Assembly: GCF_024758505.1 (NCBI RefSeq)
Contig: NZ_CP077970.1
Location: forward strand, 2,666,001 to 2,730,000
Reading direction: 5' to 3'
DNA from: Bradyrhizobium arachidis
GTDB lineage: Bacteria > Pseudomonadota > Alphaproteobacteria > Rhizobiales > Xanthobacteraceae
DNA length: 64,000 bases
The notes beneath the pieces are model-generated. The model made no database searches. It was not told the origin of the DNA and saw nothing but the letters and a program-made list of their open reading frames with translations. The translations under genes and the position numbers were made by a program. Shown piece by piece: positions 9,442 through 26,120 of the stretch (positions within the stretch are counted from its first letter, which is position 1; each line of letters starts with the position of its first letter).

Positions 9442-10587
9442 TCACTCATCCTGAATCATCCATCTCGGAGCGATTGTCGTGACGCCATCGAATACGTCTT
9501 TCAGGTGCTGTACCAGGGCCGCGCAGCGTTGCGGATCGGGGTCATCATCCGTGTAGCTGGTTTCCTCAGTTCCGCCTATCACCACGCAGTCCGCGCGCGG
9601 AAACACGTAACCGCTCCCACTAAACAGGTATTGAAGTCGGGGCTGCGCCGGCAACCATACCAGTTGTCCTTTGATCGGCGTCAGATCAGGGTCGGGCCAG
9701 ATAGCGTCTGAGCCCGCGCCGGCACAGTTGATAATGATGTCCGGCGCAAGTGCGCGAACTTGATCTTCATCGAAGAATTCCTGGTAGACGAACTGCACGC
9801 CATTCTTCTGCAGTTCCTGCTGGAGCTTGGTCAGAAATATCGGAGGTTCCACCAGCAGGGTCGCATATTTCCACCCTGATCGATTCATCGGTGAAAACGG
9901 CAGCCGGTACAGTTGAGTCCGCGGAACGAGATCGGGCGGGACTTCCGCGAACGATGGCAGCTCAATGAGAGAATAGTTGTCTCGAGGGGAGACGCCATAG
10001 GCGCTACCGCGCAACCCGTGCTCCTTGTGTGAGCGGCGCAGGATACGGACAAACTTGTCTTTTTCGCTGGCCTGAAATGCAACTTTCGAAGCAGCGAACT
10101 GGCCGCCGGCGATGCTCGAGGTCGTGTGCGGGATCAAATGCTTGGAATACACCGTCACTTGCATTCTCAGCTTTTCGGTCAACCATGTCGCCGCCGTCAG
10201 ACCCATGACTCCGGCCCCCAGGACCGCAACCGGCTTTCCTGCCGGGTTTGGATACTGCGCCATCAAGATGTCTGCGACCTCCTGTGCACACCCCCAGCTC
10301 ATCGTGATGCCGGCGCCGCCATGCCCGTAATTATGAATCACGAGCTTGCCGCCGCTCAGCACTTGCTTCTCCAACCGGTACGTTTTCTTGCGGTATGGCC
10401 GCAGTGCCGCCTTAAGCGGAGTGAGCCCGGGGACGTAAGTGAAGTCAGGATTCGGCTCGTAGGCCGCGAACGCATCCGCGGGCGGGGAACTCCCCGAGGA
10501 TTGGCTCCAAGCCGCGCCGCCCGATAGCGCCGGTGTTGCGAGTCCTCCCCCGATCACACGTAAAAAGCCCCGACGTGCAAGCTTCAT
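9442..10587 (-). CDS. Exported FAD-dependent D-amino-acid-oxidase-like enzyme, apparently circularly permuted
   Basis: About 381 residues from the ATG at 10587, which has AAAGGGA upstream on the coding strand. The start ARRGFLRVIGGGLATPA is a Tat-type signal, fitting export of a folded flavoprotein. The order of motifs is unusual: RPYRKKTYRLE (63-73) and HNYGHGGAG (85-93), which end normal D-amino-acid oxidases, come before the FAD motif VLGAGVMGL (122-130). The last third has NCAGAGSDAIWPD, GQLVWLP, YVFPR and VVIGGTEE, which lie mid-to-late in normal enzymes, and the chain stops where the RPxR strand would begin. All main motifs are present, so it is probably active. It is last in an operon with an M23 peptidase, a C26-type hydrolase and a regulator. 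Confidence 0.8.
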   Translation of the reverse strand: MKLARRGFLRVIGGGLATPALSGGAAWSQSSGSSPPADAFAAYEPNPDFTYVPGLTPLKAALRPYRKKTYRLEKQVLSGGKLVIHNYGHGGAGITMSWGCAQEVADILMAQYPNPAGKPVAVLGAGVMGLTAATWLTEKLRMQVTVYSKHLIPHTTSSIAGGQFAASKVAFQASEKDKFVRILRRSHKEHGLRGSAYGVSPRDNYSLIELPSFAEVPPDLVPRTQLYRLPFSPMNRSGWKYATLLVEPPIFLTKLQQELQKNGVQFVYQEFFDEDQVRALAPDIIINCAGAGSDAIWPDPDLTPIKGQLVWLPAQPRLQYLFSGSGYVFPRADCVVIGGTEETSYTDDDPDPQRCAALVQHLKDVFDGVTTIAPRWMIQDE

Positions 10588-10731: not shown

Positions 10732-12381
10732 TCAGGGTACTTCCGTTCCTTGCATGCCAATCAGCGCTTCATACGTCCGAATAAGTGTCCAGTACGGGGA
10801 GGAAGTGCAGCCAAAGCCCCCGCATGTTTCGGTCTGAGATCGGATTTCGAAGTGCAGATGTGCCGTCGTGCCGTTCGGGTCGGTGTGCATCCAATTCCCG
10901 ACCTCACCTATCTTTTGCCCTCGATCGCGGTGGACCAACTGGCCTTGCTTCAGGCCGGCGCCCCTGAGCGCATCGGGGCTCATGTGCAGGTACACAAAAT
11001 AGACGCCGGTATCGTCTTCTGCGATGAACTTCACGTTGTTATTGGGTTTCCAGAGTGCGCTACCCTTGGTCACGGCGACGACGTTGAACAGGTTGATCCT
11101 GCAACGGGTGCCGTCATATCGACACTCACGGGGGCGGATGTCCTGGCCTTCGTGAGCCTTTTTCATGGCCGGACAGTCCTTGGGCTCCCGCGAATTGTCA
11201 TTTCGCTCCTCGCAATAATTATCGCGCCACGGATAGGCGTAGTTCTCCGCGGTGTCTTCGCGAGGCTCGAGTATCTTGCCTGGATTTTCCTGGCATTTGT
11301 AGCGACCGTGATCCAGAGGGATCTTGTGACCATAGCAATCGCCGCCATGCATGAAGGTTTGTGAATTTGCGTAGGCCGGATTCTCCGCTATCGGGAAACG
11401 CAAATTGCCCCCACCCCACAGGATTTTCTGCGTCACGCCTCCGAGGCCATCCTGGCTTGTCCCCGGCAGGAGATTGCCCGGCGCATAGTACGTGAAACTG
11501 GGGCTTTTCTTGACGGGACGCGGCGATACGCTTCCTGTCGCATGAGGAATGGCGAGTGGCAGGCCACCAATGAGGCGGAGATCGCGAAGCACCGTCCGGA
11601 GAATTCCCTCGACGTCCGCACAGGGGAAATCCGCAACGAACGGCGGATCGTTGGCACAGGATATGTTTGCGAAGTAGAAAACGCCGTATTTGACGAAAGT
11701 GTACGTCAGACCATCGTCGCTGACGTTGCGTCGAAGCCGCGGATACATGTCCTGCAGTGTCTTGTCCTCGACAACATCGCCCCGCCGCGCATCTCCGCCG
11801 CTCTTGTCCTCATCGTTGACGTCATACAGCAGGCCGGTCCCGCCGAGATGAATCTGCACGAGATTTGCGTTCACCTTGTAGCCGCGGGGGAGCAGAGACG
11901 GTTTGACGGTGAGTATGGCGTCATAGCCGGTCGTCTTGCCGAGGAACTGCATTCTGCTGATTGCAGGGCTGAGAAAGTCACTCGTGGTTTTCGGCTTGAG
12001 GCCACGCAGGCGTACAATCGCGGATACATATCGAGAGCTGTCGATCGGTGCCAGCACCGGAATCGGGACCTTCGCAATGCGCGGATTGACGCCAGCCGTC
12101 ATCGCATTGAGCAACACCAGCGGCCGCAACGCCTCCTTGTCTGGAAAGACAAGGCCCTCAAGTTGCCGATCGACGTCGGGTAACAGCTTCGCTGCAAGGC
12201 TCTTCGGCAGTGCCCCGAGCTCAGGTGCAACCGCCAGAACGCCGCGAGCCACCTCCGGCCAATCGATGTTCACAACCCTTGCGGTCGGGACCGTTTCGTC
12301 TTGAGCCATGACAGGGACGTGATGGCCGAAGACCGCGAGTCCCAGCCCTATCGCCACCATCCGGGAATACCAGCTTCGCAC
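10732..12381 (-). CDS. Secreted M23-family metallopeptidase
   Basis: A protein of 549 residues with a signal peptide (MVAIGLGLAVFGHHVPVMAQ). The first 330 or so residues are of unknown type. The C-terminal part has the LytM/M23 zinc motifs: HEGQDI (His and Asp ligands), YLHMSPDAL, and HLHFEI, with KIGEVGNWMH between. M23 enzymes cut peptidoglycan cross-links or Gly-rich peptides in the envelope. A Cys-rich insert (CYGHK, YKCQEN, NYCEER, DCPAMKK, RECRYDGTRCRIN) lies just before and in the domain, suggesting disulfides and a periplasmic or extracellular site. It lies 23 bases after the C26 gene, so the two are cotranscribed. Confidence 0.8.
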   Translation of the reverse strand: MRSWYSRMVAIGLGLAVFGHHVPVMAQDETVPTARVVNIDWPEVARGVLAVAPELGALPKSLAAKLLPDVDRQLEGLVFPDKEALRPLVLLNAMTAGVNPRIAKVPIPVLAPIDSSRYVSAIVRLRGLKPKTTSDFLSPAISRMQFLGKTTGYDAILTVKPSLLPRGYKVNANLVQIHLGGTGLLYDVNDEDKSGGDARRGDVVEDKTLQDMYPRLRRNVSDDGLTYTFVKYGVFYFANISCANDPPFVADFPCADVEGILRTVLRDLRLIGGLPLAIPHATGSVSPRPVKKSPSFTYYAPGNLLPGTSQDGLGGVTQKILWGGGNLRFPIAENPAYANSQTFMHGGDCYGHKIPLDHGRYKCQENPGKILEPREDTAENYAYPWRDNYCEERNDNSREPKDCPAMKKAHEGQDIRPRECRYDGTRCRINLFNVVAVTKGSALWKPNNNVKFIAEDDTGVYFVYLHMSPDALRGAGLKQGQLVHRDRGQKIGEVGNWMHTDPNGTTAHLHFEIRSQTETCGGFGCTSSPYWTLIRTYEALIGMQGTEVP

Positions 12382-12404: not shown

Positions 12405-13112
12405 TCAGCCGCTTTTGCTCGGTACACAGGCCTTCACGAAGCCTCGAAACACCCGGTTGCCAGGGTGATCGGCCGCGGCAAACTGTTCTTGATGCCACTG
12501 AACGCCGAGCGCAAAGGGGTGCGCCGGAATCTCGATCGCCTCAATGACCCCATCATCGGAATGAGCGCTGGCGATCACTGAGGAGGACAACTCTCCAACG
12601 GCCTCCCAGTGGAACGTATTGACGAGCATTGCGGGGACTTCCACCAAAGCCGCCAACTTCGTACCGGGGGTGAGCGTCACACTGTGCAGCGAACCCTTCT
12701 TGTCATGTTCGATGATCGAGGTGCCCGAAGCCTGGACGTCAGACCACAACCGACAGCCATGAAGACCAGCGAGCAACTGCATGCCTGCGCATATCCCGAG
12801 AATGGGCTTTTCACGGCGCAGAAATTCGCTGGTGACTTCGCTTTCAATGGCCAATCTCTCCGAAGGCGGAGCCCTCGATGGCTTGCCGTGGAGATACCAG
12901 TCGTCGGGGTAGGAAAACCGTCCCCCAACGCAGAGCAGGCCATCAAAGTCCTCAGCGACCGGCCCCACGATTTCAGGGAGGTAGGGGATGCCGAAGGGCA
13001 GGCCGCCGGCATCCCGGATCGCCGCAAAATAGCTCTTCGAGGCCTCGTAGCGGCTTCCATCGCCGCTGGTATTCTCGTCGAGGATCACCGCGATGCGTGG
13101 CGTGCGCGCCAT
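12405..13112 (-). CDS. Class I glutamine amidotransferase-like / gamma-glutamyl hydrolase (C26, PuuD-like)
   Basis: A protein of 235 residues without a signal peptide. It has the class I amidotransferase nucleophile elbow PILGICAGMQLLAG (catalytic Cys) and the C-terminal GVQWHQEQF (catalytic His and Glu). The start RIAVILDENTSGDGSRYEASKSYFAAIRDAGGLPFGIPYL fits the peptidase C26 family, which includes PuuD (gamma-Glu-GABA hydrolase). Known members cleave gamma-glutamyl bonds in the cytoplasm; the substrate here is unknown. It lies 9 bases after the regulator gene and 23 before the M23 gene, so the four genes look like one transcript. Confidence 0.8.
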   Translation of the reverse strand: MARTPRIAVILDENTSGDGSRYEASKSYFAAIRDAGGLPFGIPYLPEIVGPVAEDFDGLLCVGGRFSYPDDWYLHGKPSRAPPSERLAIESEVTSEFLRREKPILGICAGMQLLAGLHGCRLWSDVQASGTSIIEHDKKGSLHSVTLTPGTKLAALVEVPAMLVNTFHWEAVGELSSSVIASAHSDDGVIEAIEIPAHPFALGVQWHQEQFAAADHPGNRVFRGFVKACVPSKSG

Positions 13113-14154: not shown

Positions 14155-14835
14155 ATGGGCGCCGCAAATTTGAATGGTATTCCTTTGATCAAAGACGTTT
14201 GGGAGCCTGCTTGCCGGACTTCCCTTCCGCGGGAAGTCGTGCGGGTCGAGCGCGCGGCAATCCTTTTCGCCGACATAATCGGGTTCACCTGCATGACAGA
14301 AGAATGGTCACCCGCAGAGCACATGAGCTTTCTGCGCAACTACCAACAGCACATGGCGACACGCGTCATTCAGCATGAGGGCAAGGTTGTACAGTACCAG
14401 GGCGACGCTATCGTGGCTATGTTCGGTGACTCCCATGATATGCGCTACGCGGCCGGTCAGGCCCTCTCCTGTGCCTTCGGAATGTTGGACACGATTGCGG
14501 CTTGGAGTGCTGACCGCAGCGCTCGCGGAGAATTGCCTCTGAGCATCGGCATCGGCGTACATTTGGGCTCGGTTGGCATGGGCCAAATTGGCGTGGAAGG
14601 ACATCTGGAACAAACAATCGCCGGAGACACCGTAAACGTGGCGCGCAAGCTCGAAACGCTCACTCGGAGGCTTGGCGCATCCCTCATTGTGAGTGACGAG
14701 CTATTTGCCGCAATCCCGCAAGACGCCCATCGGTTAGCAGTTGATAAACTGAAGCCACATGGCTGCTGCCGAATTGCCGGCCGAGCAAATCCAATTTCGA
14801 TTTGGCTGTCACCGCGAGAACCGCTCACGGCCTGA
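14155..14835 (+). CDS. Stand-alone class III nucleotidyl cyclase domain with altered active site
   Basis: A protein of 226 residues made up almost entirely of one class III adenylate/guanylate cyclase domain. Both metal Asp residues are visible: FADIIGFT (D40) and GDAIVAMFG (D84). The usual adenine-selecting Lys four residues before the second Asp is Gln here (Q80 in VVQYQGD). In GDTVNVARKLE the Asn is kept (N161), but the transition-state Arg position is Lys (K165) with Arg just before it. T154 sits at the other substrate-selecting position. There is no sensory or membrane part. It may make a cyclic nucleotide weakly, prefer another substrate, or be a non-catalytic partner. Confidence 0.8.
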   Translation: MGAANLNGIPLIKDVWEPACRTSLPREVVRVERAAILFADIIGFTCMTEEWSPAEHMSFLRNYQQHMATRVIQHEGKVVQYQGDAIVAMFGDSHDMRYAAGQALSCAFGMLDTIAAWSADRSARGELPLSIGIGVHLGSVGMGQIGVEGHLEQTIAGDTVNVARKLETLTRRLGASLIVSDELFAAIPQDAHRLAVDKLKPHGCCRIAGRANPISIWLSPREPLTA

Positions 14836-18405: not shown

Positions 18406-18590
18406 GGCAGTTCCTCGCGATCGATCCGATGCTGGTCCAGGCGCTCCTTCGCCTGCTCCTGGCGCTTCTCCTCCGACATGCGCTCGGCCTTGGTGCGGCC
18501 GAACTTCGCTCGGTTGGTGTCCGCCTGCTTCGCCGAGGCTTCGCGTTCCGCGCGCTTCCGGAAGCGGTTCAGATTGATGACGTTCCCCAT
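18402..18590 (-). CDS. DUF4169 small basic protein
   Basis: A protein of 62 residues, highly charged: MGNVINLNRFRKRAERE, then KAERMSEEKRQEQAKERLDQHRID. It matches the DUF4169 family of alphaproteobacteria, function unknown. The start VINLNRFRKR resembles the last residues of the nearby SspB (VVRLDRFRKK), which in SspB-alpha proteins act as the ClpX-docking tail. It overlaps the RHH gene by 4 bases and lies in the same strand and cluster as fumC, sspB and ssrA. Confidence 0.75.
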   Translation of the reverse strand: MGNVINLNRFRKRAEREASAKQADTNRAKFGRTKAERMSEEKRQEQAKERLDQHRIDREELP

Positions 18591-18824
18591 GCCGCGTCTC
18601 CATCACCCGATCCTCGCCGGGCGGGATGAAACCCTCAGAAACAAGGCGCAGAATTGCACCGCAATAGACTTGATCGCCATTCGATCGTCCTCGTCAATCG
18701 GCCTCTGGTACCATCAAACATGAATTTGCCCCCCTGGAGGGGTGAACATTGGCTAGCACCTGCCGGGCTGCAAACATTGACGGTAATCAAAGCCCGTCAT
18801 TTAAGCCCCATATTTCATGAGGCT

Positions 18825-18852
18825 TAGGCCTCCGTATGATTACGGAGGCCTA
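18825..18852 (-). terminator. Perfect hairpin after fumC
   Basis: TAGGCCTCCGTA (18825-18836) and TACGGAGGCCTA (18841-18852) pair perfectly around a 4-base loop, starting 7 bases after the fumC stop on the minus strand. There is no clear T-run, so it may be a 3'-end stabiliser or a terminator. Confidence 0.6.
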
Positions 18853-18859
18853 TCGGAAT

Positions 18860-20290
18860 TCAGCCCGGACCGGTCATTTTCTCAGGCCTGACCAGGCGGT
18901 CGAACTCGTCCGGGGAGACGAAACCGAGCTGGACCGCCTCCTGTTTCAGCGTCGTCCCGTTGGCATGCGCCGTCTTGGCCACCTTGGCGGCGTTGTCGTA
19001 GCCGATCTTGGGGGCCAGCGCGGTCACCAACATCAGCGAGCGCTCCATCAGCTCCCGGATCCGCTTCTCGTCGGCGCGGATACCGTCGACGCAATGCTCT
19101 GTGAAGGAGCGCGCGGCATCGGCCAGGAGCCGGATCGAATGCAGCATGTTGTAGGCGAGCACCGGCTTGAAGACATTGAGCTCGAAATGGCCCTGGCTGC
19201 CGGCCACCGTGATCGCGGTGTGGTTGCCGAAAACCTGGCAGCACACCATGGTCATCGCCTCGCACTGGGTCGGATTGACCTTGCCGGGCATGATCGAGGA
19301 GCCCGGCTCGTTCTCCGGCAGGATCAATTCGCCGAGCCCGGAGCGCGGGCCGGATCCCAAGAGGCGGATGTCGTTGGCGATCTTGAACAGGCCGGTCGCG
19401 ACCGAATTGACGGCGCCATGCGCCAGCACATAGGCGTCGTTCGAGGCCAGCGCCTCGAATTTGTTGGCGGCGCTGGTGAAGGGCAGCTTGGTGATGCCGG
19501 CGACATGCTTGGCGAACAGTTTTGCGAAGCGCGGCTTGGAATTGAGGCCGGTGCCGACCGCCGTGCCGCCTTGCGCCAGCGGATAGAGATCCTTCACCGC
19601 CACCTTCAGCCGCGCGATGCCGCTCTCGACCTGCGCGGCATAGCCGGAGAATTCCTGTCCGAGCGTCAGCGGGGTTGCGTCCTGGGTGTGGGTGCGACCG
19701 ATCTTGACGATCTTGGCGAATGCCTTCTCCTTCTTGCGCAGCGCGCGGTGCAGCTCGCTTAAGGCAGGGACGAGATCGGCGATGATACGGTCCGCGGCGG
19801 CGATATGCATCGCGGTCGGGAAGGAGTCGTTCGAGGACTGGCTCATATTGACGTGATCGTTGGGATGCACCGGCTTCTTGGCGCCGAGCTCGCCGCCCAA
19901 CAATTCATTGGCGCGGTTGGCGATCACCTCGTTCAGATTCATGTTGGACTGCGTGCCCGAACCGGTCTGCCAGACCACCAGCGGAAAATGCGCATCCCAG
20001 TCGCCGGCCACCACCTCCCGCGCGGCGCGGATGATGGCGTTGGCTCGCCGTTGATCAAGGAGCCCGAGTTCGCGATTGGTCATGGCCGCGGCGAGCTTGA
20101 CGATGCCGAGCGCATGCACGAGCGAGATCGGCATGCGGTCTTCACCGATCCGGAAATTCTGGCGGGAGCGTTCGGTCTGCGCGCCCCAATAGCGATCGGC
20201 GGGGACCTCGATCGGACCAAAGCTGTCGGTCTCGATGCGGGTGGCGGGGCTTCGCGCAGCGCTGGTCGTCTTGTCCATGAGCATATCCAT
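18860..20290 (-). CDS. fumC: Class II fumarate hydratase
   Basis: A protein of 476 residues. It has the fumarase/aspartase signature [13 protein letters not shown], with [12 protein letters not shown] and [19 protein letters not shown] upstream. It hydrates fumarate to L-malate in the TCA cycle in the cytoplasm and needs no iron, unlike class I. The first ATG is at 20290, but ATG codons at 20284 and 20278 are alternatives, since GGCAGG lies directly before the first. It sits between sspB and the DUF4169 gene on one strand. Confidence 0.95.
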
Positions 20291-20373
20291 CCTGCCGCGC
20301 GGGCGCGCGACCTCTTATGCTCATTTATATAGGCAGTTCGGCCGGGCTTAGCGCTGCAAGGCCCGGATCTGGA

Positions 20374-20895
20374 TCATTTCTTGCGGAAACGATCGAGGCG
20401 AACGACCTCGGCGCCGCCGCTCTGGCTCGGCGCAGCCGGCTCTTCCTCGGCCTCCGCCTTCTCGGCGGCCGGAGCAGGCACCGACACGGCCGACGCTGCG
20501 GGCGCTGCCGGCAGCGTCGCCGGCGCAACCTCGGCGACATCAGACGTGTCGAACTGGAGGCCGAACTTCACGGAAGGATCGAGGAAACTCTTGATGGCGC
20601 TGAACGGCACCACCAGGCGCTCCGGGATGCCGCCGAAAGACAGGCCGACCTCGAAACGATCCTCGAGAATCGTTAGGTCCCAGAACTGGTGCTGAAGGAT
20701 GATCGTCATCTCTTCCGGATATTGCGCCAGCAGCCGCGGCGAGAGCTTTACGCCCTCGGCCTTCGATACGAAGGTGATGAAGAAATGATGTTCGCCCGGC
20801 AATCCGTGCGCTGCAGCATCGCTCAGCACCTTTCGCAGCACGCCGCGCAACGCGTCCCGTGCCAGCACGTCGTATCGGATATGATCGGTCGCCAT
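20374..20895 (-). CDS. sspB: SspB, ClpXP adaptor for ssrA-tagged proteins (alpha type)
   Basis: A protein of 173 residues. The first 115 or so residues form the SspB fold (HIRYDVLARDALRGVLRKVLSD, HHFFITFVSKAEGVKLSPRLLAQYPEEMTIILQHQFWDL, FGGIPERLVVPFSAIKSF). An Ala/Pro/Glu-rich linker follows, and the protein ends in VVRLDRFRKK, a ClpX-docking tail as in other alphaproteobacteria. SspB tethers ssrA-tagged chains to ClpXP. The gene directly downstream of ssrA on the same strand is thus its functional partner. Confidence 0.92.
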   Translation of the reverse strand: MATDHIRYDVLARDALRGVLRKVLSDAAAHGLPGEHHFFITFVSKAEGVKLSPRLLAQYPEEMTIILQHQFWDLTILEDRFEVGLSFGGIPERLVVPFSAIKSFLDPSVKFGLQFDTSDVAEVAPATLPAAPAASAVSVPAPAAEKAEAEEEPAAPSQSGGAEVVRLDRFRKK

Positions 20896-21014
20896 TGTGG
20901 ATCCTGACTATCGGTCCTGTCGCAATCTGCCGGTCCGAACCGCCGCTCGCGGCCCGACTCGCCAAGCGTCCATGCTACCGCGCCTACGGGAGTAGCTGGA
21001 GTCCCCGCTGGGGA

Positions 21015-21360
21015 GAAAAAAGGAAGTGGAGGCTTCTGTTGCCAGGTGCCTCCGAACCCCGCCTAACGGAGCTTAACCCGTTAGGGCTTTAAGATGGTCT
21101 TTCAAACTGCGTTACGCAGCCTGAGCAACCGGAGCATAGTTGTCGTTTGCAACTATTGCAGTAGCCCGATAACGGCGGAACCATACCGAGAAAAAGTACG
21201 CCCTTTACGCCCTCGTCGATCCTATTTCGCCCCCGCCAAAGCCCGCCTTTCGGCGGCAAAAAACCCAATCTGGTGGGCTTTGGTGGAGGCGCCGGGTACC
21301 GCCCCCGGGTCCGAATGGTTTATTGCGACGACCGTTTATTTCCATAGCCGGCGAACCGGC
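21015..21360 (-). ncRNA. ssrA: tmRNA, circularly permuted two-piece type
   Basis: On the minus strand the acceptor piece comes first (about 21360-21281), ending in CGCCTCCACCA with an encoded CCA; a T-arm (CCGGG, loop, CCCGG) lies just before it. A spacer (21280-21235) follows, then the coding piece starting GGGGGCGAAATAGGATCGAC at 21234. GGGGGCG pairs with CGCCTCC to form the acceptor stem. The tag frame is at 21112-21150. A hairpin (GGAGGC/GCCTCC) and a T-run at 21016-21021 end the gene. The order is that of alphaproteobacteria, where the precursor is cut into two RNAs. It rescues stalled ribosomes. End points are approximate. Confidence 0.93.
21112..21150 (-). other. ssrA: tmRNA tag reading frame
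   Basis: Twelve codons plus TAA encode ANDNYAPVAQAA. The final VAQAA is a hydrophobic degradation end recognised by ClpX; the N-terminal part (ANDNY) is the section bound by SspB in known systems. The resume codon is GCA. Confidence 0.95.
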
Positions 21361-21366
21361 ACCTCC

Positions 21367-21372
21367 AATATA
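21367..21372 (-). promoter_or_regulatory. -10 element of ssrA
   Basis: TATATT on the minus strand lies about 7 bases before the likely RNA start GGAGGTGCC. No good -35 was seen at 16-18 bases. Confidence 0.45.
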
Positions 21373-21483
21373 GGGGGCAAAGGATTAGAAAAACAGGGGT
21401 TTCCCACCGGCCGGGACCGGTTCCTTTGGATAGGTCCCGCGAGAGCCTTGGCGTGGCCGCGGCACGGGCCGTAAGCTTCGGAT

Positions 21484-22109
21484 ATGTCCTCGGATTCACC
21501 GCAGGCCGCGCAAGAGCCGGATGCATCAGGCGATGCCGGCCCGCCGCCCAGCCTGCTGGCGCTGTTCACAGCCTTTGCAAACTGTTCACAGCCTTTGCAA
21601 AAATGTCGCTGGCGGGGTTCGGCGGGGTCTTGGTGTTTGCCCGGCACGCCATCGTGGACCAGCACCGCTGGATGACAGCGGAGGAGTTCAACGAGACATT
21701 TGCGCTCTGCCATTTCCTGCCCGGTCCCAACATCGTCAATCTGTCGATGGTGTTCGGCTCGCGATTGCGAGGAATCGCCGGCGGGGTCGCGGCCTTCGCG
21801 GGCCTGCTGGGGCCGCCGACGCTGATCATGACGGCCCTTGCCATGCTCTATGCCCATTTCGGCGAACTCGAGCCATTGCGCCGCGGACTGGCCGGGGTGT
21901 CCTGCGCCGCCGTCGGGCTCCTGATCGCGGTCGTGGTCCGCATGATGATGCCCCTTCTCAAGTCGCGCGATGCCATCGCGCTGGTCCTGATGCTCGGTGT
22001 TTTGGCGGCCATCGGCGTGATGCGCTGGCCGCTCCAGACGGTGCTGCTGGTCGCAATCCCCCTCAGCATCGCCGTGACCTTCGCGCTGCGGCGGAAAGTA
22101 GCAGCATGA
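21484..22109 (+). pseudogene. chrA first half (chromate transporter), frameshifted by a 20-bp tandem duplication
   Basis: The frame from the ATG at 21484 starts as a normal short ChrA protein (PPPSLLALFTAFA) but is broken. CTGTTCACAGCCTTTGCAAA is present twice in a row (21562-21581 and 21582-21601). Twenty bases shift the frame, and the rest of the protein (KMSLAGFGGVLVFARHAIVDQHRWM..FCHFLPGPNIVNLSMV-like section) lies in another frame, ending at 22109. With one copy removed the product would be about 201 residues, normal for the first of two short CHR proteins. ChrA pairs export chromate. The other half, downstream, is intact and overlaps by ATGA. The gene is probably inactive now but could revert by slippage. 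Confidence 0.8.
21562..21601 (+). repeat. Exact 20-bp tandem duplication in chrA
   Basis: CTGTTCACAGCCTTTGCAAA occurs twice without a spacer. The first copy is in frame with the upstream start, the second with the downstream body, so removal of either restores the gene. Confidence 0.95.
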
Positions 22110-22639
22110 CGCCGCACGGAAACCCGATCTGGGCCCTGATCTCGACCTTCGGCCTGATGTCCCTGTTCGCGGTCGGCGGCGCCGCCGCGGCCGTGCCCGA
22201 GATGCACCGCATCGCGGTGGAAGTCCATCACTGGATGAGCGAGAAGCAGTTCGCCGATGCCTACGCCATCTCGCAATTGTCACCCGGGCCCAACGTCCTG
22301 ATCGTCACCCTGATCGGCTATTCGGTCGCGGACATTCCCGGTGCATTGGCCGCAACGCTCGCGATGTGCCTGCCGACGGCCCTGCTGGCTTATTCCGTGA
22401 GCAGGCTGCTGAACCGCTCGACCCGGTCGCGTTGGCCCGCGATCATCCAGGCCGCGCTGGTTCCTCTGTCGATCGGGCTGATGGCGGCGAGCGCCCTGAT
22501 CCTGGCGCAGGCAACCGACAAGAACCTTGTCGCATTGTTGCTGACGGGCGTGGTCGCGGTGGCTGCCTTTGCAACGCGCATGAACCCGCTCTGGCTGTTG
22601 CTTGCCGGGGGCATTTTGGGTTTTGCTGGCGTTGTCTGA
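22106..22639 (+). CDS. Chromate transporter, second half-size subunit
   Basis: A protein of 177 residues with about six membrane segments and the CHR motifs FGLMSLFAVGGAAAAVPEM and ISQLSPGPNVLIVTLIGY. Short CHR proteins work as pairs with opposite membrane topology, so it needs the first-half protein, whose gene is frameshifted upstream. Its ATG overlaps the stop of that gene (ATGA at 22106-22109), so its translation normally depends on coupling; the upstream frameshift may therefore also lower its expression. Confidence 0.85.
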   Translation: MTPHGNPIWALISTFGLMSLFAVGGAAAAVPEMHRIAVEVHHWMSEKQFADAYAISQLSPGPNVLIVTLIGYSVADIPGALAATLAMCLPTALLAYSVSRLLNRSTRSRWPAIIQAALVPLSIGLMAASALILAQATDKNLVALLLTGVVAVAAFATRMNPLWLLLAGGILGFAGVV

Positions 22640-22730
22640 CGAAACTCGCTAGGCAAGTATCCGGGTGGGGTTCCAGATCCAACCGTGACAACAACAAGGC
22701 TCGTGACGACGGGTCGCGGAGGAGACATGC

Positions 22731-23495
22731 ATGGCCGACACAATGGGCCATTCAGCGACAGCTACGCGTAACAATGCGCGGGTGGCGCTCGGCATCTTCG
22801 TGCTGGCGCTGGCACCGCAAATCTTCGAAATCATCTGGTCGCTCGGGACCATCGTCGGCTGGGGCAGCGGCCGCGGACCCGCGGCCGCGCTGATCGGCCA
22901 CACGAGCGCACTGCTCGCAGGAGCACCCGGCGCCGTGTTCGGCTCGTTCGGCGGCGAGGCCAAGAAGCTGTCCTCGGACGTGCTCCTGGCGCTGATCTAC
23001 TCCTATCCGCTGTTTGCGGTGGCGATCCTCACGATCTTCATGACGATCAGGTCGCCGCAGGACTATATCGGCGGCGTCGTGCTGATGGCGGTGGCGCTGT
23101 TTGCGCTGTGGGCGTCGAGCGACCTGCAGGGCATGCGTGGATTTTCGTTCGGAGCCGGCACGGCACCGCGCATGTTCGGCGGGCTGCTGGTCGCGTTGTC
23201 GGCCGGCATCGCGCTCACCGGACTTTTGCAGGACGGGCCGGCGCTCGCGCATTACTCCTGGCGGGGCCCGCTGTTCGTGATGGCGGCGATCCTGTTCTTT
23301 GCGCTGGCGATCCGCCCACTGGGTCTCGTCGTCTCGGCGTTCGCAAGCTTCCTGATCGCAGCGACCGGCTCGCATGAGACGCGCTGGATCGAGGCCATCA
23401 TCGTCGGTGCTTGCCTGACGATCGGCTGCGCAATCCTGTTCCCCTACATATTGGGGCTGCCGATGCCGATGTTCCCGCGTTTCCTGGTGCAGTGA
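22731..23495 (+). CDS. tctB: Tripartite tricarboxylate transporter, small membrane subunit TctB
   Basis: A protein of 254 residues with several hydrophobic stretches (VALGIFVLALAPQIFEIIW, LIYSYPLFAVAILTIFMTI, GGVVLMAVALFALWASSDLQG) and the end ILFPYILGLPMPMFPRF, typical of TctB/DUF1468. GGAGGAG lies upstream. It works with the large subunit TctA (8 bases downstream) and a periplasmic TctC protein. The C-terminal GLPMPMFP is a family hallmark. The substrate is probably a carboxylate. Confidence 0.85.
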   Translation: MADTMGHSATATRNNARVALGIFVLALAPQIFEIIWSLGTIVGWGSGRGPAAALIGHTSALLAGAPGAVFGSFGGEAKKLSSDVLLALIYSYPLFAVAILTIFMTIRSPQDYIGGVVLMAVALFALWASSDLQGMRGFSFGAGTAPRMFGGLLVALSAGIALTGLLQDGPALAHYSWRGPLFVMAAILFFALAIRPLGLVVSAFASFLIAATGSHETRWIEAIIVGACLTIGCAILFPYILGLPMPMFPRFLVQ

Positions 23496-23502
23496 GGGCA
23501 TA

Positions 23503-25017
23503 ATGGATCTCTTTGCCAACCTCGCTCACGGCTTCGTCGTCGCTCTCACGCCGATCAACCTGCTGATGTGCCTGATCGGCGCCCTCGTCGGCACGCTGGT
23601 CGGCGTGCTGCCCGGTATCGGCACCATCGCAACGGTGGCGATGCTGTTGCCGATCACGTTCGGCCTGCCGCCGGTCGGCGCGCTGATCATGCTCGCCGGC
23701 ATTTATTACGGCGCCCAGTATGGCGGCTCGACGACCTCGATCCTGGTCAACATCCCGGGCGAAGCGACCTCGGTCGTCACCGCGCTCGACGGTCACCAGA
23801 TGGCCAAGCAGGGCCGTGCCGGCCCGGCGCTGGCGATCGCAGCGATCGGCTCGTTCTTCGCCGGCTGCGTCGCGACCGTGTTGATCGCGGTCCTCGGCGC
23901 GCCCCTCACAAAACTCGCGCTGGCGTTCGGCCCGGCCGAGTATTTCTCGCTGATGGTGCTGGGCCTGATCTTTGCCGTCGTGCTGGCGAAGGGCTCCGTG
24001 CTCAAGGCGATCGCGATGATCGTGCTGGGACTGCTGCTCTCCATGGTCGGCTCCGACATCGAGACCGGCGCGTCCCGCATGGCCTTCAACATCCCCGAGC
24101 TCGCCGACGGCCTTGGCTTTGCTACCGTCGCGATGGGCGTGTTCGGCTTTGCCGAGATCATCCGCAACCTGGATCACGGCGCGGAACTGAACCGTGACCT
24201 GGTGCAACAGAAGATCACCGGCCTGATGCCGACCAAGAAGGATCTCATCGACTCCGCGCCCGCGATCGGACGCGGCACGGTGCTCGGCTCGATCCTCGGC
24301 ATCCTGCCGGGCGGCGGCGCGGTGATCGCCTCCTTCGCCGCCTATACGCTGGAGAAGAAGATAGCGAAGAACCCGTCGCGGTTCGGCCGCGGCGCGATCG
24401 AGGGCGTGGCGGCGCCGGAGAGCGCCAACAACGCCGCGGCGCAGACCTCCTTCATCCCGCTGCTCACGCTCGGTATCCCGCCGAACGCTGTGATGGCGCT
24501 GATGGTGGGTGCGATGACGATTCACGGTATCGTGCCGGGCCCACAGGTGATGCAGAAGCAGCCGGATCTCGTCTGGGGTATGATCGCCTCGATGTGGATC
24601 GGCAATCTGATGCTGATCATCATCAACCTGCCGCTGGTCGGCATCTGGGTGCGGCTGTTGCGCGTGCCTTACCGGCTGATGTTCCCGTCGATCGTGATCT
24701 TCTGTGCGATCGGCATTTACTCCGTCAACAACGCGCCCGTCGACGTCATCCTTGCCGGCGTGTTCGGTTTGGTCGGCTACTGGCTGATCAAGCACGATTT
24801 CGAGCCGGCGCCGCTGCTGCTCGGCATGGTGCTCGGGCCGCTGATGGAGGAGAACCTGCGGCGCGCGCTTCTGATCTCGCGCGGCGACTGGAGCGTGTTC
24901 GTGACGCGGCCGTTATCGGCGGTGCTGCTCGCGATCGCGGCGGGGCTTCTGGTGCTCGCGGTGCTGCCCGCCCTGCGCGCCAAGCGCGACGAGGTGTTCA
25001 CCGAATCGGAGAACTGA
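23503..25017 (+). CDS. tctA: Tripartite tricarboxylate transporter, large membrane subunit TctA
   Basis: A protein of 504 residues with about twelve membrane segments. Family motifs are clear: GTLVGVLPGIGTIATVAMLLPITFGLPP at the start, YYGAQYGGSTTSILVNIPGEATSVVT, and in the second half GILPGGGAVIASFAAYTLEKK and APESANNAAAQTSFIPLLTLGIPPNAVMALM. TctA forms the transport path. It follows tctB by 7 bases, so they share a transcript, which appears to end partly at the hairpin at 25085. Confidence 0.93.
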   Translation: MDLFANLAHGFVVALTPINLLMCLIGALVGTLVGVLPGIGTIATVAMLLPITFGLPPVGALIMLAGIYYGAQYGGSTTSILVNIPGEATSVVTALDGHQMAKQGRAGPALAIAAIGSFFAGCVATVLIAVLGAPLTKLALAFGPAEYFSLMVLGLIFAVVLAKGSVLKAIAMIVLGLLLSMVGSDIETGASRMAFNIPELADGLGFATVAMGVFGFAEIIRNLDHGAELNRDLVQQKITGLMPTKKDLIDSAPAIGRGTVLGSILGILPGGGAVIASFAAYTLEKKIAKNPSRFGRGAIEGVAAPESANNAAAQTSFIPLLTLGIPPNAVMALMVGAMTIHGIVPGPQVMQKQPDLVWGMIASMWIGNLMLIIINLPLVGIWVRLLRVPYRLMFPSIVIFCAIGIYSVNNAPVDVILAGVFGLVGYWLIKHDFEPAPLLLGMVLGPLMEENLRRALLISRGDWSVFVTRPLSAVLLAIAAGLLVLAVLPALRAKRDEVFTESEN

Positions 25018-25084
25018 TCCGGCGCGCCTGCGTCGGCGGGCCGCAGGCGGAAGGCATCGACTTTCCTCGCAGTCTGGTGAAATG

Positions 25085-25115
25085 AAAATGCCGGCCATCA
25101 TGGCCGGCATTTTTC
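25085..25115 (+). terminator. Intrinsic terminator between tctA and tctC
   Basis: AAAATGCCGGCCA (25085-25097) pairs perfectly with TGGCCGGCATTTT (25101-25113) around a TCA loop, and a T-run continues. It lies 25 bases before the tctC start. Confidence 0.85.
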
Positions 25116-25139
25116 TTTGACGTTTCGAAGGGGATTGAG

Positions 25140-26120
25140 ATGAACACCATTCGCACGCTTGCGGGCGCATGCGTCGCTGCGGTGGCTTCGCTGTGCGCCA
25201 TTGTCGCACCGGCTGAAGCGCAAAACTATCCGACGCGCAACATTACCATGATCGTGCCGTTCGCCGCCGGCGGTCCGACCGACGTCATCTCCCGCATCGT
25301 CACTGCGCATATGGCGCAGACGCTCGGACAGAGCATCATCATCGAGAACGTGGTCGGCGCCGGCGGCACCACCGCCACCACGCGGGCGGCACGCGCAACC
25401 AATGACGGCTATACGCTGATCACCGGGCATATGGGCACGCATGCCGCGTCCGTTCCGCTCTATCCCAAGCTCGCCTACCATCCCGAAAAGGACTTCGAGC
25501 CGGTCGCGCTGCTCGCGGGCACGCCGATCCTGATCCTGGCGCGCAAGGATTTTCCGCCGAAGGATCTGAAGGAGTTCGTGGCCTACGTGAAGGCCAATGC
25601 CGAGAAGGTGAATGCCGCGCACGCCGGCATCGGTTCGGTGTCGCACGTCTCGTGCGAACTCTTGCATTCGATCCTCGACGTCAAGCCGGTCGGCGTGCCC
25701 TTCAACGGCACCGGCCCCGCGATGAACGCGCTGGTCGGCGGCCAGGTCGATTACATGTGCGACCAGATCGTCAACGCCGTGCCGCAGATCAATGCCGGCA
25801 CCATCAAGGCCTATGCGATCGCGACGCCCGCGCGCAATCCGTCGCTGCCCAACGTGCCGACCACGGCGGAAGCGGGGCTGCCGGCATTCCAGGCCCAGGC
25901 CTGGAACGCGGTCTTTGCGCCGAAGGGAACCTCGCCGGCGATCCTGGCGACGCTCAACGCGGCCGCCGTCAAGGCGCTCGACGACGAGAACGTCAAGAAG
26001 CGCCTGCTCGAACTCGGCAGTGTGATCCCGGCAGCCGCAGACCGCACGCCGGAGGCGCTTGCCGCCCTCGTCAAAGCCGAAGTCGCGAAGTGGAGCGCAG
26101 TGCTCAAGCCGGCAAGTTAG
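25140..26120 (+). CDS. tctC: Tripartite tricarboxylate transporter substrate-binding protein TctC
   Basis: A protein of 326 residues with a signal peptide ending near VAPAEAQ, then NYPTRNITMIVPFAAGGPTDVISRIV, the classic TctC/Bug start, VENVVGAGGTTATTRAARATNDGYTL and FNGTGPAMNALVGGQVDYMCDQ. It binds a carboxylate in the periplasm. GGGGA lies before the ATG. The strong hairpin between tctA and tctC suggests that its level is set apart from that of the membrane subunits. A second terminator follows at 26145. Confidence 0.92.
   Translation: MNTIRTLAGACVAAVASLCAIVAPAEAQNYPTRNITMIVPFAAGGPTDVISRIVTAHMAQTLGQSIIIENVVGAGGTTATTRAARATNDGYTLITGHMGTHAASVPLYPKLAYHPEKDFEPVALLAGTPILILARKDFPPKDLKEFVAYVKANAEKVNAAHAGIGSVSHVSCELLHSILDVKPVGVPFNGTGPAMNALVGGQVDYMCDQIVNAVPQINAGTIKAYAIATPARNPSLPNVPTTAEAGLPAFQAQAWNAVFAPKGTSPAILATLNAAAVKALDDENVKKRLLELGSVIPAAADRTPEALAALVKAEVAKWSAVLKPAS

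Follow-up and report, generated by a model that had tools for sequence, protein, structure and literature searches.

A putative natural circular permutant of D-amino-acid oxidase with a predicted twin-arginine signal in Bradyrhizobium arachidis, and its bacterial relatives

Results

The locus and its coding content

The window analysed is a 64,000-nucleotide stretch of Bradyrhizobium arachidis assembly GCF_024758505.1 (contig NZ_CP077970.1, positions 2,666,001–2,730,000). It contains a gene for a D-amino-acid oxidase (DAO)-like flavoprotein, hereafter P0001, together with three upstream genes on the same strand (Table 1). The first-pass annotation had placed the gene at the correct coordinates, and its strand is minus, with an ATG at 10587 and a stop codon at 9442–9444. 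An alternative, longer GTG start is present; the ATG was preferred because AAGGGA lies 7 bases upstream of it and because the signal MKLARRGFLRVIGGGLATPALSGGAAWSQ starts there. Pfam assigned PF01266 (DAO) at 8.2e-33, with the best stretch covering residues 120–376 plus one further stretch. The host genome, a single contig of 9.43 Mb, yielded a single match to P0001. The nearest named proteins (96% and 87%) are both from Bradyrhizobium, and plasmid records that annotate its closest relatives call them 'FAD-dependent oxidoreductase'.

Table 1. Features of the permuted DAO-like gene and its cassette, in window coordinates.
Feature	Position	Strand	Basis
Permuted D-amino-acid-oxidase-like flavoprotein P0001, 381 residues	9442..10587	minus	ORF, Pfam, pig DAO match
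FAD-binding Rossmann start through substrate domain, residues 118–366, normal DAO order	9490..10236	minus	
YVFPR, residues 327–331; Tyr327 = pig Tyr228	9595..9609	minus	
GAGVMG dinucleotide-binding motif, residues 124–129	10201..10218	minus	
Transposed block, residues 45–111, corresponding to C-terminal strands and helix of DAO (pig ~271–336)	10255..10455	minus	
HNYGHGG, residues 85–91 = pig 307–313	10315..10335	minus	
RPYR, residues 63–66; Arg63 = pig Arg283	10390..10401	minus	
Predicted twin-arginine signal peptide, MKLARRGFLR plus hydrophobic stretch, ~residues 1–29, no lipobox Cys	10501..10587	minus	
M23-like peptidase with N-terminal signal-like stretch; next gene upstream of DAO	10732..12381	minus	Signal-like stretch: our own reading
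Peptidase C26/class-I glutamine-amidotransferase-like protein	12405..13112	minus	
Conserved protein, 289 residues; possible N-terminal helix-turn-helix	13122..13991	minus	Helix-turn-helix: our own reading

Order of the sequence blocks

It had been claimed from the sequence that the C-terminal block of DAO (RPYR...HNYGHGGAGITMSWGC) precedes the FAD motif in this protein, with everything else in normal order (including IGGTEE at residues 337–342), as in a circular permutant. The observation was confirmed, the motifs lying at the residues given, and the permutation reading is supported by two-block matches in swapped order to both pig DAO and human D-aspartate oxidase (DASPO). In a phmmer search against PDB chains, residues 120–343 of P0001 aligned with pig DAO chain residues 3–244 (i-E 1.2e-13) and residues 62–107 with 282–329 (i-E 2.9e-07), each block being significant independently. 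A 35-row profile of the permuted family, A2, likewise matched human DASPO in two swapped blocks (whole-sequence E 3.7e-55), with profile positions 64–321 on chain residues 8–269 and positions 8–64 on residues 277–336. As these blocks join at A2 position 64, the ancestral chain would have been cut between residues ~269 and ~277 in human DASPO numbering.

Homologues with the same order, which the first-pass annotation had proposed to seek, were abundant. Among the query and the best 120 of 1461 matches, HNYGH[GA]G stood ahead of the FAD motif in 117 of the 121 proteins and behind it in none. The pattern left four undecided: inspection by eye showed P0005 and P0068 to be permuted, and P0030 and P0033 are N-terminally short. 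Duplication intermediates, with two HNYGHGG copies per protein, were absent from these 121 listed proteins. A genome collection was also scanned, seeded with the patterns HNYGH and GITxSWGC and hence biased towards relatives that carry them; 582 of 590 stretches encoded a relative. In the 80 best loci, of which 79 were readable, the FAD motif followed HNYGHGG by 20–60 residues in 76, and the other three showed the same arrangement by eye. With HNYGHGG near the N terminus rather than the C terminus, P0001 is placed in a permuted branch and not among canonical DAO/DASPO members.

The opposite arrangement was recovered in actinomycetes, using a sample of 197 genomes centred on G529 because that genome carries a permuted gene. 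A2 matched 38 of them, twice without a break (G529 and G669). In the other 36, the second block was listed in 18, immediately downstream of the main one in every case, and the main block alone passed the E cut in the remaining 18. In G654, for example, 2603866–2604618 on the minus strand (profile 68–322) is followed by 2603680–2603859 (profile 4–64). The two blocks thus adjoin in the opposite order in 18 genomes, which serves as a converse control for the permutation. Pig DAO as query matched 35 of the same 197 genomes, 34 of them unbroken from residue 1–3 to at least residue 327 and G688 from residue 142.

Predicted fold, cofactor site and pocket

Structure prediction, a check suggested at the outset, was performed with AlphaFold2 on the single chain and gave a model of P0001 with pLDDT 88.9 and pTM 0.86; block averages were at least 85 across residues 41–370, and pLDDT was low at residues 1–35. 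The predicted model has the DAO fold, with DAO and DASPO as the closest matches. GAGVMG provides the GxGxxG start of an FAD-binding Rossmann fold, and the equivalents of pig Gly7, Gly9 and Gly12 are present in 45 of 46 permuted alignment rows, the other having a gap. Pig Arg283, the carboxylate-binding arginine (Arg63 of P0001), is Arg in all 46 permuted and all 29 canonical bacterial rows; the equivalent of pig Tyr228 is Tyr in 44 of the 46 permuted rows, in which the HNYGHGG positions are conserved as well.

Other pocket positions are remodelled. The pig Leu51 position is Gln in 34/46 permuted rows and Leu in 20/29 canonical bacterial rows; that of Tyr55 is mostly Ser, Thr, Ala or Val in the former and Tyr in 23/29 of the latter. 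Gln53 is also affected, and the lid residue Tyr224 of pig DAO has no counterpart here. Given the changes at Leu51 and Tyr55, the enzyme may act on something other than ordinary D-amino acids.

Pig DAO (EC 1.4.3.3; 1kif/1an9) and human DASPO (6rkf) are the best matches of the permuted family by sequence and by fold, and share with P0001 the fold, the FAD motif, the Arg283/Tyr228 equivalents and the HNYGHGG block. The permuted form differs from them in its rotated block order, the Leu51/Gln53/Tyr55 positions, the missing Tyr224 lid and the predicted export. Canonical actinomycete DAOs (e.g. L159) have HNYGHGGAG[VI]TLSWGC and GLRP.R closely in common with the permuted form, but they have the normal order, lie on the opposite side of a branch with 99.9 support, and in many cases are encoded by ORFs of ~305–350 residues that leave little room ahead of the FAD strand. 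Glycine oxidase ThiO, MnmC and sarcosine oxidase, also of PF01266, are not known to carry the HNYGHGG block and matched more weakly than DAO by both sequence and fold.

Distribution and phylogeny

By record titles and ranks, the permuted form occurs in about ten phyla, namely Pseudomonadota, Actinomycetota, Planctomycetota, Myxococcota, Acidobacteriota, Gemmatimonadota, Verrucomicrobiota, Bacteroidota, Zixiibacteriota and one Dadabacteria bin; many records are metagenome bins, so single phylum placements may be wrong. When permuted sequences were rotated back, permuted and canonical rows parted on one branch of a 76-row tree (SH-aLRT 100). The same split was obtained from the unmoved block alone (75 rows, SH-aLRT 99) and from 84 rows including an extra HNYGHGGSGW subgroup (SH-aLRT 99.9). 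Besides pig DAO and one alphaproteobacterial row, the canonical side consisted entirely of actinomycete sequences (28 rows). This split fits a single permutation, and on these alignments the origin is apparently single. The rest of the PF01266 superfamily starts with the FAD strand, which makes the canonical order the likeliest ancestral state.

The extra subgroup (L209–L215, L217, L097 and L100), which is likewise permuted, mostly has HNYGHGGSGW in place of HNYGHGGxGIT, with a Tat-like signal in nine of ten and a lipobox in seven. Contig 24 of G530 (Phycisphaerales) carries two permuted DAO-like genes ~6 kb apart (18548–25781).

Across 329 Pseudomonadota genomes, A2 found the permuted form in 17, always unbroken; the absence of canonical genes there is insecure, as scoring was limited to at most six candidates in each genome. 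Canonical matches were also sought in the 15 genomes that carry selected permuted loci, and none listed at E <= 1e-5 was unbroken. Pig DAO as query returned, from 240 Alphaproteobacteria genomes, a single canonical gene (in G525) plus a portion of the P0001 gene itself, and is insensitive in this class, since the permuted gene of G300, a genome within the sample, went unreported. Of 52 matching plasmid records, 37 are from Burkholderia, the listed rows matching residues 57–106 only; in the one Burkholderia glumae plasmid gene examined, the block lies near the C terminus, as in the canonical order. That gene (L226:568–1734), a DAO-type 'FAD-dependent oxidoreductase', sits beside an aminotransferase, a quinone oxidoreductase-like gene and bioB. 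A general absence of canonical DAO from Pseudomonadota is not borne out, as G525 and the B. glumae plasmid gene are canonical. In the samples taken, the permuted form is the commoner DAO in Alphaproteobacteria and the canonical form prevails in actinomycetes.

Export signals

The twin-arginine signal previously noted in P0001 is present, with an RRxFL motif followed by a hydrophobic stretch. For the family, a crude rule was applied that required the motif [RK]Rx[hydrophobic] together with a hydrophobic run and a start codon within 45 residues; some of the upstream frames it counts may be untranslated. It called Tat-like signals in 71 of the 79 readable loci. When the upstream residues of these loci were shuffled 200 times, the calls averaged 17.6 and never exceeded 25. 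A Tat-like signal plus a lipobox was found in 56 of the 79 (shuffle mean 2.7, maximum 7), or in 47 under a stricter lipobox rule. Among the 121 listed proteins, RRx[FLIVM][LIVMF] occurred within the first 40 residues in only 21, i.e. P0001 and the 20 homologues P0002–P0020 and P0022. The Tat rule called a signal in just one of the 13 Bradyrhizobium loci L105–L117 (44–50% identical), L110, and there the call sits far upstream of the likely start. Export states, assigned by hand and confirmed for L105 and L109 (P0023, L064 and L215 were left out), changed four times on the tree among 51 permuted rows (9 inside, 42 outside). Judged by these signals, the family appears to have exported and cytoplasmic branches, with P0001 in the former, and export would not be general.

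Gene neighbourhood

The Pfam M23 match of the adjacent peptidase-like gene is slightly below cut-off (26.8 versus 28.7 bits). The 289-residue protein matched nothing in Pfam or NCBIfam and nothing convincingly in the PDB; its assignment as an AraC regulator was not supported, and no family was assigned. The permuted DAO occurs in 21 of 265 Bradyrhizobium species genomes, and its Tat form, at 80% identity or more, in six. An M23-like neighbour at a level of at least 81% occurs in exactly these six, the other 27 Bradyrhizobium genomes with an M23 match having only paralogues at 31–37%. The order unknown protein–C26–M23–DAO is kept in all six, and in L004, whose DAO is 42% identical, all four genes are kept in another arrangement. 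Co-inheritance of adjacent cassette genes does not by itself prove a joint function, and, with no signal evident on the C26 protein, the cassette would span two compartments. The DAO-like gene lies in one frame in five of the six genomes; in the sixth, G082 (L121, 7203–8349), a frame change near residue 290 breaks it in two, with the surrounding cassette kept. An adenylate/guanylate cyclase catalytic domain protein (window 14155–14835), divergent from the cassette, adjoins it in all six.

A thiamine diphosphate (TPP) enzyme was sought in 99 stretches (L002–L081, L095–L100 and L118–L130) and lies within 500 bp of the DAO gene in six (L003, L008, L025, L037, L127 and L128). Those scanned (L003, L008 and L037) are nearest to indolepyruvate/phenylpyruvate decarboxylase, far below the cut-offs. 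In L009 and L042 such an enzyme lies ~3 kb away, and L118 and L119 show a partial match. These neighbours fit an oxidase that makes 2-keto acids, without naming its substrate. The TPP enzyme at L008:438–2147 has a Tat-like start; a decarboxylase acting outside the cytoplasm would be unusual.

Thirteen loci are sphingomonad-type by title; in 12 of them (L015, L018, L029, L030, L033, L040, L059, L063, L065, L070, L071 and L074) the DAO gene is flanked by hslV and hslU, all in the same orientation. For an exported flavoenzyme this conserved location is an odd one. The signal-less Bradyrhizobium copies L096 and L127–L130 are near a berberine-type FAD-linked oxidase gene, for which the L127 protein alone was scanned.

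Discussion

We consider it probable that P0001 is a natural circular permutant of the DAO/DASPO family, a folded FAD oxidase that is exported by the Tat system and oxidises D-amino acids outside the cytoplasm. The new termini would fall after the final helix of the substrate half and before the RPxR strand, so that the old C-terminal helix would lead straight into the first FAD-binding strand, with the moved block presumably in its usual place in space. The chain would adopt the ordinary DAO fold and bind FAD in the cytoplasm, and the folded protein would then be exported. P0001 itself would stay soluble in the periplasm, while many relatives look membrane-anchored as lipoproteins. There it would oxidise a D-amino acid or a close analogue with an alpha-carboxylate and pass the electrons to oxygen, presumably with formation of peroxide. 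In Bradyrhizobium, it may act with the two peptidase-like proteins of the cassette, which hint at D-residues freed from peptides or wall material.

The same permuted fold might instead belong to a dehydrogenase, or to an oxidase of other substrates (N-substituted, peptidic or hydroxy acids), with electrons entering the respiratory chain rather than reaching oxygen. The pocket remodelled at pig Leu51, Gln53 and Tyr55 and the peptidase neighbours would suit such an enzyme, as would the lipoprotein-like anchoring in 56 of 79 loci, which could serve a membrane electron acceptor. We regard it as less likely, because the carboxylate-binding Arg/Tyr pair and the HNYGHGG block are kept, and the nearest enzymes of solved structure are DAO and DASPO, with glycine oxidase a much weaker match.

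A domain-swapped dimer, in which the N-terminal block packs on a second chain, accords with the short linker between block and FAD strand (residues 112–118), and sequence cannot separate intra- from intermolecular packing; it appears very improbable in view of the single-chain AlphaFold2 model, which is confident throughout the block and beyond. Chance, an assembly error, a frameshift or a gene fusion as the source of the motif order found no support apart from the frame change in G082, and the order shared by homologues, both the listed proteins and loci of about ten phyla, refutes such an origin to the point of leaving it virtually no weight.

A broader scenario may also be considered. With one ancient permutation, the N terminus of DAO would have been released from the FAD strand and could have acquired a Tat (often lipoprotein) signal. 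This would have founded an extracytoplasmic branch that came to prevail in Alphaproteobacteria, spread to several other phyla, and would clear or recycle D-amino acids set free at the cell wall. We hold this scenario to be doubtful, the more so given the canonical order in a betaproteobacterium and the absence of signals from most listed proteins.

In the open-access (PMC) literature, as judged by titles and the starts of abstracts, no description of a permuted DAO was found. What seems unremarked so far is a large permuted DAO branch of apparently single origin, with many members predicted to be exported. Such a natural permutant shows which chain ends the DAO fold tolerates and is a ready scaffold for N-terminal fusions. 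It also points to a widespread family of oxidases that are often, by prediction, extracytoplasmic.
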